The position numbers were made by a program, and so were the translations under genes. DNA of 64,000 bases from Planctomycetaceae bacterium (GTDB lineage Bacteria > Planctomycetota > Planctomycetia > Pirellulales > Pirellulaceae): assembly GCA_012729315.1 (NCBI GenBank), contig JAAYDI010000128.1, positions 1 to 64,000 of the forward strand, read 5' to 3'. Under the pieces are notes generated by a model, which did not search any database, was not told the DNA's origin, and saw only the letters and a list, made by a program, of their open reading frames with translations. This document shows positions 39,953 to 44,239 of this stretch, piece by piece (the first letter of the stretch is position 1; the number at the start of each line of letters is the position of its first letter).

Positions 39953-39991
39953 CCCTTGATTCGCGCCCTTGATTCGCGCCCTTGATTCGCG
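39953..39991. repeat. Three perfect 13-bp tandem repeats between coaE and rho
   Basis: CCCTTGATTCGCG occurs three times without change (39953-39965, 39966-39978, 39979-39991). The array lies in the 179-bp gap before the second rho gene, inside its probable leader. Confidence 0.9.
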
Positions 39992-40105
39992 CTGGTCGGA
40001 ACAGGCTCCCATCTCCGCCAGCTGTTCCTGCATTTCAGAACTGGTTCCCACCACGGGGCACCCTCTGTGTGTCCAGCCCAATTGCTCATCAGGAGCATCC
40101 ACCTC

Positions 40106-41641
40106 ATGACGAACTCGAATCCCAAGCCTTCGGAGCCGCGCGGGACGCGCCGCAAGGGCGTGTCGCGTCGCAAGTCTGAGGTCGTTTCGGAAGCGGCACC
40201 GCACGACGCCGTGGCGGACGAGCAGCCGCGTGAGGAGCGGCCGGCGGATCCGGATCCGGCGTCCTATGCCGGGGAAGACGAGAATCCCTTGTCGCTGGCC
40301 GAAGAGCTGGCGGACGAGGCCGAACGCGGGATTCGCGACGACACCAACGATCGCTACGAGAAGATCAAGCAGGGCGAAATCCACATCGCCGAGCTGCAGA
40401 AGCTGAGCATGGCCGAGCTGATTGACGCGGCGCGCAAGGACAACGTGACCGACGTCGCCGGCATGAAGAAGCAGGACCTGATCTTTCGCATCCTGAAAGA
40501 ACGGGTCAAGATGAACGGGCTGATGTACGGCGAAGGCACGCTGGAAATCCTCCCGGACGGGTTCGGGTTCCTGCGCAGTCCCGACTACCACTACCTGTCG
40601 TGCCCGGACGACATCTACGTGTCGCCCAGCCAGATCCGCCGGTTCGGCCTGCAGACCGGCTGCACCGTCTCGGGCCAGATCCGCCCGCCGAAAGAGAACG
40701 AACGCTACTTCGCGCTGCTGCGGGTGGAGGCGATCAACTATCAGGATCCCAACCTGATGGCCGAGAAGGTCTCCTTTGACGACCTCACGCCGCTGCATCC
40801 CGATACCCGCATCGTGGTGGAAACGGAATCCCGGGAAGTCTCCACGCGGGTCGTCGATCTGGTCACCCCGATCGGTTTCGGCCAGCGCGGGCTGATCGTC
40901 AGTCCGCCGCGGGCCGGGAAAACCATCCTGCTGCAGAAGATGGCCCGCGCGGTGATCAAGAACTATCCGGACGCCTACGTGATCATGCTGCTGATCGACG
41001 AGCGGCCGGAGGAAGTGACCGACATGGAACGGGAGGTGAAAGGGCACAGCTGCGAAGTGATCAGCTCGACGTTCGACGAACCTTCCTCGCGGCACGTGCA
41101 GGTGTCCGAGATGGTGATCGAGAAAGCCAAGCGGATGGTGGAGTACGGCACGGACGTCGTGATCTTCCTCGACTCCATCACCCGGCTGGCACGGGCGTGG
41201 AATGCCGAGTGCCCGCAGTCGGGCAAGATCCTCTCGGGCGGTCTGGACGCCAACGCCCTGCAGAATCCCAAACGCTTCTTCGGCTCGGCCCGCAAGGTGG
41301 AGGAGGGGGGGTCGCTGACCATCCTCGCCACCGCGCTGGTCGACACCGGCAGCAAGATGGACGAGGTGATCTTCGAGGAATTCAAGGGGACCGGCAACCT
41401 GGAAATCGTCCTCGATCGGAAACTCGTCGACCGGCGGGTGTGGCCGGCCATTGACATCAACCGCAGCGGCACCCGGCGGGAAGAAATGCTGATGGACCCC
41501 GAAGAACACCGCCGCGTGTGCGTGATGCGGCGCGTGCTGAGCGACATGAATGCGCCCGACGCCATGGAACTGCTCGTCACCCGCCTGCAGAAGACCAAGA
41601 CCAATGCCGAGTTCCTGATGAGCATGAACATGAATGGATAG
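40106..41641 (+). CDS. rho: Transcription termination factor Rho, canonical
   Basis: 511 residues. Full-length Rho: an acidic N-terminal extension (about 1-85), the Rho_N helical domain (about 90-135, [18 protein letters not shown]), cold-shock RNA-binding domain ([19 protein letters not shown]) and ATPase domain. Walker A is SPPRAGKT, the Q-loop is SGKILSGG, and the R-loop region [15 protein letters not shown] matches E. coli Rho. The ATG at 40106 has AGGAG upstream. This is the more standard of the two rho genes in the window. Repeats lie on both sides of it. Confidence 0.96.
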
Positions 41642-41644
41642 CGA

Positions 41645-41808
41645 GGGGAAATGACGAATGACGAGATACCCAAGGACGAAGGAATGACGAATGACGAGAT
41701 ACCCAAGGACGAAGGAATGACGAATGGCGAGATACCCAAGGACGAATTCGTGCTTCCGTCATTCATGATTCCTTCGTCCTTGGGTATCTCGTCATCCGTC
41801 ATTTCCCC
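41645..41808. repeat. Direct and inverted repeat element between rho and ribH
   Basis: Three copies of a 33-bp unit starting ATGACGAATGACGAGATACC lie in tandem (41651-41683, 41684-41716, 41717-41746, the last shortened). A fourth copy follows in reverse orientation (about 41758-41808). The outer arms, about 50 bp, pair with only a few mismatches around a roughly 60-bp centre. The result is a long hairpin just after the rho stop and just before ribH. It could terminate or process the transcript, or be a small repetitive element. Confidence 0.85.
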
Positions 41809-41822
41809 CAGGGTTCGCAGTG

Positions 41823-42293
41823 ATGCCTAACATTTTCGAAGGTACCGTCACCTGTCCCGCGGGCGGCCGGTTTGCGGTGGTCGTGGCCCGCTACAATCGG
41901 GCGATCACCGACAAGCTGCTCGACGGCGCTCTGGTGACGCTCCGGGAGCACGGAGTGCCCGACGAGTCGATCGACGTGGCCCGCGTGCCGGGCGCGTGGG
42001 AGATTCCTGTCGTGGCGCAGCGGATGGCGCGCAGCGGCGCGTATTGTGCCGTGCTCTGCCTGGGGGCGGTGATCCGGGGCGAGACCACGCATGACCAGTA
42101 CATCAACCGGCAGGTGAGCGATTCGCTGGGGCAGATCGCCCGGGAGTTTGATGTGCCGGTCTTGTTCGGCATTCTGACCTGCAATACCGTGGAGCAGGCG
42201 ATCCATCGCGCCGGCGGGAATGTGGGGAACAAGGGGAGCGAATGTGCAGAGGCGGCGCTGGAGATGGCGCAGCTGCTGGGCAGGCTGCCCTGA
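41823..42293 (+). CDS. ribH: 6,7-dimethyl-8-ribityllumazine synthase
   Basis: 156 residues. Makes the direct precursor of riboflavin. [18 protein letters not shown] and the catalytic His in [14 protein letters not shown] are all present. ATG at 41823 gives MPNIFEG as in homologs; a GTG directly before it is the alternative. nusB follows after 44 bp, a very common ribH-nusB pairing. Confidence 0.97.
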
Positions 42294-43908: not shown

Positions 43909-44239
43909 CCGGTTCCCGGGCCGCCGCATTGCACAACCGAGGATTGCACAACCGAGGATTGCACAGCCGAGGATTGCACAGCCGTCGGGATTGCGCAGCC
44001 GTCAGAGTCTCTCAGCGCGGGCCGAGCGCTGCAGCGGCATTTATCCCACCCCCCTGTTTTGCGCTAATTCCGTGCGCCCGTGTGGTCGAATATCTGCAAT
44101 GGGATTTGAAATGCGGGGGCCCGGCCGCATTGCGCGTGCGCCGCGGCACCTCCCCACCCACGCCACGTAGTCTGTGTACGCCGTGTCTGGCACACGCGTT
44201 CCCGCCTGTACTACGCCTGCATCCCCAAGTGGAGTATCG
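43909..44239. other. Intergenic region upstream of the porin
   Basis: 331 bases. The first third is a tandem repeat array (43928-44005). The rest is non-coding, with a T-run and AT-rich patches at 44050-44100 that may carry the porin promoter, though no clear -35/-10 pair is seen. Confidence 0.5.
43928..44005. repeat. Tandem array of a 15-bp repeat downstream of ftsY
   Basis: ATTGCACAACCGAGG is repeated: two exact copies (43928-43942, 43943-43957), one with a single change (43958-43972), then two more degenerate copies to 44005. The gradient of decay suggests local slippage rather than recent insertion. Confidence 0.85.

Follow-up and report, generated by a model that had tools for sequence, protein, structure and literature searches.

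The closest relative of the element described here is the intervening sequence (IVS) of 23S rRNA genes, and its closest working analogy is the RAYT-REP system. According to the available passages of Warrier et al. (2016, PMC4990558), the Coxiella 23S rRNA IVS has a terminal stem, with two to three tandem GACAGAT heptamers and a degenerate one just before its S23p open reading frame (ORF); the same passages cite Ralph and McClelland's idea that the IVS is a mobile element whose ORF served mobility. The protein family PF05635 is described as related to Avd and to rRNA insertions in excerpts of two papers (PMC10053308, PMC11270868), and the 23S rRNA intervening-sequence protein (IVP) is named in a figure legend on CRISPR-linked proteins in an excerpt of a third (PMC10910872). 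Heptameric repeats have also been reported. Excerpts of Rehm et al. (2015, PMC4692102) describe GGGAATC arrays in Xanthomonas that are dispersed and mostly non-coding, form 70 and 75 convergent pairs in two genomes, and often lie within 50 bp of stop codons. In the portion available, MacGregor (2015, PMC4679880) describes direct repeats of the heptamer TAACTGA in distant phyla, suspected of horizontal spread although 'no mechanism is evident'. In the excerpted open-licence PMC literature, we found no paper joining the four-helix protein to heptad arms or to the repeat described below.

The window is a stretch of 64,000 nucleotides (positions 1 to 64,000 of contig JAAYDI010000128.1, assembly GCA_012729315.1) from a Planctomycetaceae bacterium, whose genome (G000) comprises 5.47 Mb in 213 contigs. 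Its element of interest and the flanking genes are as follows.

40067-41641, plus strand: rho (TIGR00767), whose stop codon lies 3 nt before the element
41645-41808, no strand assigned: whole element, a gene-less palindromic heptad-array element filling the rho-ribH gap (inverted repeat and hairpin)
41645-41649, no strand assigned: outer palindromic extension GGGGA, pairing with TCCCC at 41804-41808 (extension 5)
41650-41682, plus strand: left arm, unit 1, 33 nt; heptad parse 7+7+8+7+4, by eye
41683-41715, plus strand: left arm, unit 2, identical to unit 1 (100%)
41716-41748, plus strand: left arm, unit 3 (91%)
41747-41764, minus strand: partial inverted unit of a second variant, GAATGACGGAAGCACGAA, in the loop, by eye
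41771-41803, minus strand: right arm, inverted unit, 33-mer AATGACGGATGACGAGATACCCAAGGACGAAGG, from repeat detection
41820-42293, plus strand: ribH (lumazine synthase; TIGR00114), whose start lies 11 nt past the element

A preliminary description, made from the letters alone, had placed three direct 33-bp copies and one inverted copy at 41645-41808, and its coordinates are right: repeat detection on the window sequence recovers all four, and TRF also detects the direct array. The hairpin with arms of about 50 bp that it foresaw corresponds to inverted arms of 52 nt (41645-41696 and 41757-41808) that are 94% complementary, and both protein models bear out its location between rho and ribH. Folded as single-stranded RNA, the element reaches -97.5 kcal/mol (z -12.4), and as single-stranded DNA -59.8 (z -13.1), values equalled by none of 200 shuffles in either case. 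Its 33-mer can be parsed by eye as GAATGAC GAATGAC GAGATACC CAAGGAC GAAG (7+7+8+7+4), a layout that resembles that of gene-bearing elements and recurs in locus L147. The unit core CGAGATACCCAAGGACGAA occurs four times in the window at up to three mismatches, always within the element, where 0.01 would be expected, and the second-variant unit is found again elsewhere in the genome. These repeat counts and the folding against shuffles rule out a chance palindrome. A CRISPR array was rejected from the anatomy alone, the tandem units being near-identical and devoid of unique spacers, and all six Rfam matches, to microRNA and snoRNA hairpin models (best E 3.5e-8), fell below the gathering score. 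The element matched neither the phage nor the plasmid sequence collection. Two other repeats lie in the window, about five copies of the 15-mer ATTGCACAGCCGAGG at 43928-44001 and three perfect copies of the 13-mer CCCTTGATTCGCG at 39953-39992, upstream of rho.

How does this locus compare with the described systems? Like the 23S rRNA IVS, as portrayed in the excerpts, its family consists of small elements whose complementary ends form a long stem-loop, with an ORF of the same protein family. IVSs, however, sit in rRNA genes, whereas the element described here lies between genes, lacks an ORF of PF05635 or TIGR02436, and is one of dozens of copies. The GGGAATC repeats, as far as the excerpts go, share heptamer arrays, dispersal, mostly non-coding placement, convergent pairing and nearness to stop codons, but their heptamer is a different one that forms G-quadruplexes, and their authors, in those excerpts, generally found no association with mobile elements. 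The TAACTGA repeats share the period of seven, the intergenic placement and the distant phyla; unlike ours, those in the available text are direct (one is inverted), most of them just upstream of start codons. REP/BIME sequences with RAYT resemble the family in having many gene-less intergenic hairpins and few gene-bearing loci (excerpts of PMC3733652). They differ in their protein, in that our element has no transposase, and in having one palindrome of 20-40 bp, tagged GTAG (or CGTC), rather than heptad arms; the unit here is not itself palindromic, and CGTC occurs inside the heptads, not as the tag of a single palindrome.

We consider it probable, with considerable room for doubt, that the element in the window belongs, as a gene-less and MITE-like copy, to a family of mobile IVP palindromic elements that spread with the help of the four-helix protein. 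Its identity as a gene-less copy of the family is well supported, while the mechanism of mobility is what we infer. The dispersal of the unit is a first line of evidence. In its own genome, the pattern GAATGACGAATGACGAG has 233 matches at up to two mismatches (overlaps counted) and the reversed pattern none. The unit is thus not confined to this site, as a local duplication would be, and the dispersed family envisaged in the preliminary description exists. We compiled sites from the exact matches and from the listed matches of the mismatch search, so that sites made solely of diverged units may be missing; 52 clustered entries gave at least 51 sites after L054:6323 was dropped as an unrelated tandem repeat. 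Of these listed sites, 26 are two-armed, all 26 of them convergent (plus array left, minus array right; one is interleaved), and 25 are one-armed, several at contig ends. Arm-to-arm spacers range from 12 nt, in the window element, to 432 nt among the listed sites. Both the dispersal without reversed-control matches and the uniform convergence argue for a mobile element. Among 60 related genomes, 23 have matches to GAATGACGAATGACGA at up to one mismatch, 1 to 40 each and sporadically between genera; the reversed control gave two matches in total (in G005 and G017). Loci L038 and L071 have a 156-nt spacer in common (69% identity, E 3e-18), suggesting that at least some copies spread as whole units.

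Heptad arrays probably break assemblies. Contigs end within a few hundred bases of the one-armed arrays at L041, L046, L048, L051, L059, L067 and L072, and flank identity reaches 99% over 128 nt between L051 and L067 and 96% over 198 nt between L059 and L071; such near-identical flanks imply that the arrays either break the assembly or have spacers in common. The 24-kb contig C192 (L070/L071) carries six array sites, including the only gene-bearing family element found in this genome, and its last array lies less than 300 nt from the contig end.

The family here lies mostly in intergenic DNA beside gene ends, in keeping with the placement given in the preliminary description, which had also proposed mapping the copies against gene ends. 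Gene positions came from a crude codon-usage gene finder, with the window entry set by hand to the true rho-ribH orientation and 12 of the 51 entries left out of the count for overlapping a predicted gene. Adjoining 3' ends (n=46) lie at a median distance of -2 nt, 35 of them within 25 nt, and adjoining 5' ends (n=26) at 36 nt, 10 of them within 25 nt. A negative distance means that the stop codon falls inside the first heptads; since a frame running into an array would also end there, part of this signal may be an artefact. Gaps holding an element were convergent rather than divergent in a ratio of 13:3, against 34:37 in the background (p 0.025) and 14:33 among background gaps of at least 100 nt (p 0.0004). 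The flanking target duplications that the preliminary description had suggested looking for were not found in the 26 two-armed elements (direct-duplication sum 27, permuted 30.4 +- 7.3), which sets the family apart from MITEs of DDE insertion sequences. The palindrome itself reaches beyond the heptads more than expected by chance in these 26 elements (sum 64; mean 26 and maximum 50 of 2000).

A hairpin in intergenic DNA, next to 3' ends and without target-site duplication, is also what characterizes IS200/IS605-type elements. It would be tempting to see here a REP- or MITE-like hairpin that a Y1 transposase (HUH, RAYT-like) moves in trans, with the four-helix gene as passenger or regulator, and genes of the Y1 family PF01797 do occur in all six genomes that carry the A1-type gene discussed below (1 to 14 each), in G053 about 0.7 kb from a repeat match (gene C179:11429, match C179:10753). 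However, 46 of the 60 relatives have PF01797 anyway, and the single PF01797 gene found in G000 (C70:16347) lies on a contig without a unit match, exact or among the listed matches at zero and one mismatch, so that by these searches no RAYT gene flanked by repeats was found in this genome. We regard this explanation as unlikely, although a Y1 enzyme acting in trans is possible. On C70, the only PF01797 match and the only RVT_1 match of G000 lie about 14 kb apart, perhaps in a mobile island.

Another explanation would dispense with mobility altogether, the arrays being locally grown heptad minisatellites that are kept as 3'-end hairpins (for termination, mRNA stability or processing) and flank the gene by chance. 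Consistent with it are the 3'-end bias, the numbers of units, which can be unequal in the two arms of one element, and the element-specific units common to both arms: arms within one element are more alike than re-paired arms (0.871 against 0.768 +- 0.015, 0 of 20000 permutations, 23 elements). We think local growth improbable nonetheless, since the same 33-mer stands at many unrelated loci while its reversed control is absent, the 156-nt spacer is common to two loci, presence is sporadic between genera, and no intrinsic terminator was called in 41500-41950. No sigma-70 promoter was called in that interval either. The matching of arms within an element fits the mobile-element reading as well, and so does the rho-ribH gap itself. 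Among the 29 ribH loci of relatives that we examined, 22 have a recognisable rho upstream, and 13 of these, including that of G001 of the same genus, have a short gap (about 6-65 nt by eye) that holds no array. In three other genera, different heptad arrays, judged by eye, occupy the gap directly after the rho stop codon, inverted in L243 and L244 and tandem in L236, an alternation of occupied and empty gaps that argues for mobility. In L236 (from G017), the heptamers CAGTTTT and CAGTACT stand side by side, by eye.

What might move such elements is suggested by the one listed site among the 51 that holds a gene. Locus L070:16566-17225, on contig C192, has 432 nt between its arms and a gene (L070:16671-17075) whose 134-residue product matches TIGR02436, 'four helix bundle protein' (60 bits, cut-off 24), and PF05635, 23S_rRNA_IVP (38.5 bits, cut-off 33.8). 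The right-arm 33-mer of the window element recurs unchanged in both arms of this locus, and also in L031, L061 and L071. The protein's first residues, MTNDEI, are encoded by the arm itself. In a tblastn search of the array sites, the gene was present at this one site; other matches had E 0.003 or worse and fell mostly on the repeat-derived N-terminus. Two more PF05635 matches in G000, on C118 and, weakly, on C183, have no GAATGAC array in the fetched flanks. To our knowledge, the four-helix protein has no known catalytic function. The predicted AlphaFold model (pLDDT 89) resembles 2rld (Z 16.9) and 2gsc, the Xcc0516 protein (Z 15.5), which comes from a Xanthomonas species that also has the GGGAATC repeats. 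It also resembles Avd of diversity-generating retroelements (8ub7, Z 12.8; 4dwl, Z 12.3) and a de novo bundle (Z 13.2), although for helical bundles Z values under about 13 may reflect merely a common arrangement.

The predicted likeness to Avd raises the question of whether hairpin RNA and an Avd-like protein are copied by a reverse transcriptase (RT) in trans, as in diversity-generating retroelements. This fold match, though near the common-arrangement level for bundles, and the one RVT_1 gene of G000 are in its favour. We nevertheless hold this explanation to be very unlikely: G019 (99% complete), G053 and G044 have gene and arms with no RVT_1 match at E<=0.001, which indicates that RT in trans is not required. 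The element itself contains no RT, template or variable repeat.

The association of gene and arms extends well beyond this genome. PF05635 genes were present in 40 of the 60 related genomes and in none of 14 control genomes. From this genome and its relatives, we took 33 returned loci and 40 weaker matches chosen from the list, 67 of these 73 having enough flank; 46 of the 67 show inverted similarity between their flanks at a score of at least 16, against 1 of 391 offset windows, while for direct similarity the counts were 5 of 67 and 9 of 391. A clear excess is seen at lag 7 and at its double, 14, and at no other lag between 3 and 15. Seven proteins (alignment A1) used to scan GTDB genomes yielded at least 531 loci, the best 80 of which belong to Planctomycetota, Verrucomicrobiota, Patescibacteria, WOR-3, Nitrospirota and others; the mention, in the preliminary description, of similar repeats in planctomycetes and verrucomicrobia was therefore right but too narrow. 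Among the 78 testable loci of these best 80, 66 have inverted flanks (4 of 287 offset windows) and 10 direct ones (9 of 287), so that in both sets direct matches are somewhat raised, though to a much smaller extent than the inverted. As further controls, small genes of other kinds in this genome gave 1 of 77 and the ribH loci 0 of 29. These inverted IVP flanks support the mobile-element reading, and their mainly inverted, not direct, arrangement is a further point against locally grown minisatellites.

The family thus has a common anatomy, two convergent arms of period-7 units, here of GAATGAC type in 33-nt blocks, with one small TIGR02436/PF05635 gene of Avd-like fold between the arms of gene-bearing members. 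A GAATGAC-type motif stands on both sides of the gene in L106, L107 and L124 among 70 relatives' loci, and in L074 of the genome itself; the remaining gene-bearing elements use other heptamers. That the gene sits between the arms in L070:16566-17225, L106, L107 and L124 likewise argues for a mobile element. The spacing of AA[TGA] triplets across the matched arms of these 66 loci has peaks at 7, 14 and 21 and at 11, 18 and 25, implying heptads with a 4-nt phase step. The reading frame is open across the match in 71 of the best 80 loci, and stops interrupt it in 9. Arrays translate into peptides, which is a warning for annotation. Among viral contigs, 30 stretches fit a peptide pattern, but none encodes a relative of the four-helix protein. 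In L118 of G001, from the same genus, a PF05635 gene is surrounded by inverted repeats of mixed period that span about 200 nt (score 73.5).

The sequence of the arms tracks that of the protein. In Mantel tests of protein distance against arm 4-mer distance (5000 permutations), the 112 loci at the arm threshold gave r 0.66 (0.68 with GC difference removed), 46 loci within one order 0.57 (GC-partial 0.57), and the 66 loci of the A1 set 0.47 (GC-partial 0.43), none of the permutations reaching any of these values. The A1-type gene (E<1e-50, six genomes) occurs in 4 of 10 genomes with at least five GAATGAC matches, against 2 of 51 others (p 0.005). The heptamer AATTGCA has at least five matches in 4 of 61 genomes (186, 51, 14 and 10) and one match in each of two others (reversed control 1), and all four rich genomes carry the matching protein clade (L127, L132, L126, L133); in G058, the fifth carrier known, the heptamer is a variant, the list of carriers comprising the fetched loci and being possibly incomplete. 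These correlations between sequences show that gene and arms travel together, which supports the mobile-element reading and counts against a Y1 enzyme as the mover of the arms; they do not prove binding, and common descent of gene and arms can produce them without any.

A recurrent genomic neighbourhood deserves mention. Fourteen of the 121 examined loci, or 14 of 25 planctomycete loci with an A1-type gene, adjoin the same xylose-isomerase-like TIM-barrel gene (PF01261) in distant planctomycetes (L106, L107, L110, L124, L146, L147, L150, L152, L160, L162, L180, L202, L208 and L214), although the sampling carries a bias, in that this locus supplied four of the seven queries and only the best 80 hits were kept. 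In 11 of the 14, a GFO/IDH/MocA oxidoreductase gene lies on the element's other side, and in L150 and L162 the element lies on the opposite side of the TIM-barrel gene. Distances of the IVP and of the neighbour gene are uncorrelated across 13 loci (r 0.045, matched or exceeded in 3500 of 10000 permutations) and so lend no support to vertical inheritance of the gene copies linked to the operon, though these copies do group together on a protein tree of low resolution (14 entries, 3 changes against a shuffled mean of 11.1). It is conceivable that a source copy was retained at this locus, that the locus is a hot spot, or that the link is functional.

Taken with the heptamers upstream of the S23p ORF in the Coxiella IVS, as given in the excerpt, which also favour the mobile-element reading, dispersed heptad repeats and the four-helix protein likely have one common explanation. 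This tie to the four-helix-bundle gene is an addition of the present analysis, the preliminary description having offered no hypothesis on the element's nature. We speculate that the four-helix protein would recognise the arms, as hairpin RNA or as single-stranded or cruciform DNA, and recruit a host enzyme, with a HUH transposase and the repair or replication machinery as candidates. The recruited enzyme would then place copies of the hairpin at new sites, with a preference for positions behind stop codons, and gene-less copies would be moved in trans. Arm units may be copied within and between the two arms, by fold-back or template-switch copying, which would keep the hairpin matched. Several points weigh against the mobile-element reading. 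The element has no transposase or RT and its protein no known catalysis; the gene is in only one of the 51 listed sites; G050 and G051 have no A1-type gene at E<1e-50 despite 40 GAATGAC-type matches apiece; 21 of 67 and 12 of 78 IVP loci lie below the arm threshold; and no base-exact, clean orthologous empty site was obtained, the same-genus locus L227 being empty but too diverged for alignment.

More broadly, these observations hint at a widespread class of bacterial mobile elements without transposase or RT, consisting of an IVP protein and cognate inverted heptad arms with a clade-specific heptamer code, whose gene-less hairpins spread behind genes and of which the 23S rRNA IVS and the published heptamer repeats would be special cases. 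We put this generalization forward tentatively, doubting it slightly more than we believe it. Three puzzles meet here, namely the origin of dispersed heptameric repeats, the job of the four-helix-bundle protein and the origin of 23S rRNA IVSs. Should the protein target the arms, the pairs of arm and protein would constitute a natural series of recognition codes, with at least 531 loci in one scan, and the spreading of DNA by a new, enzyme-poor route would become accessible to study.
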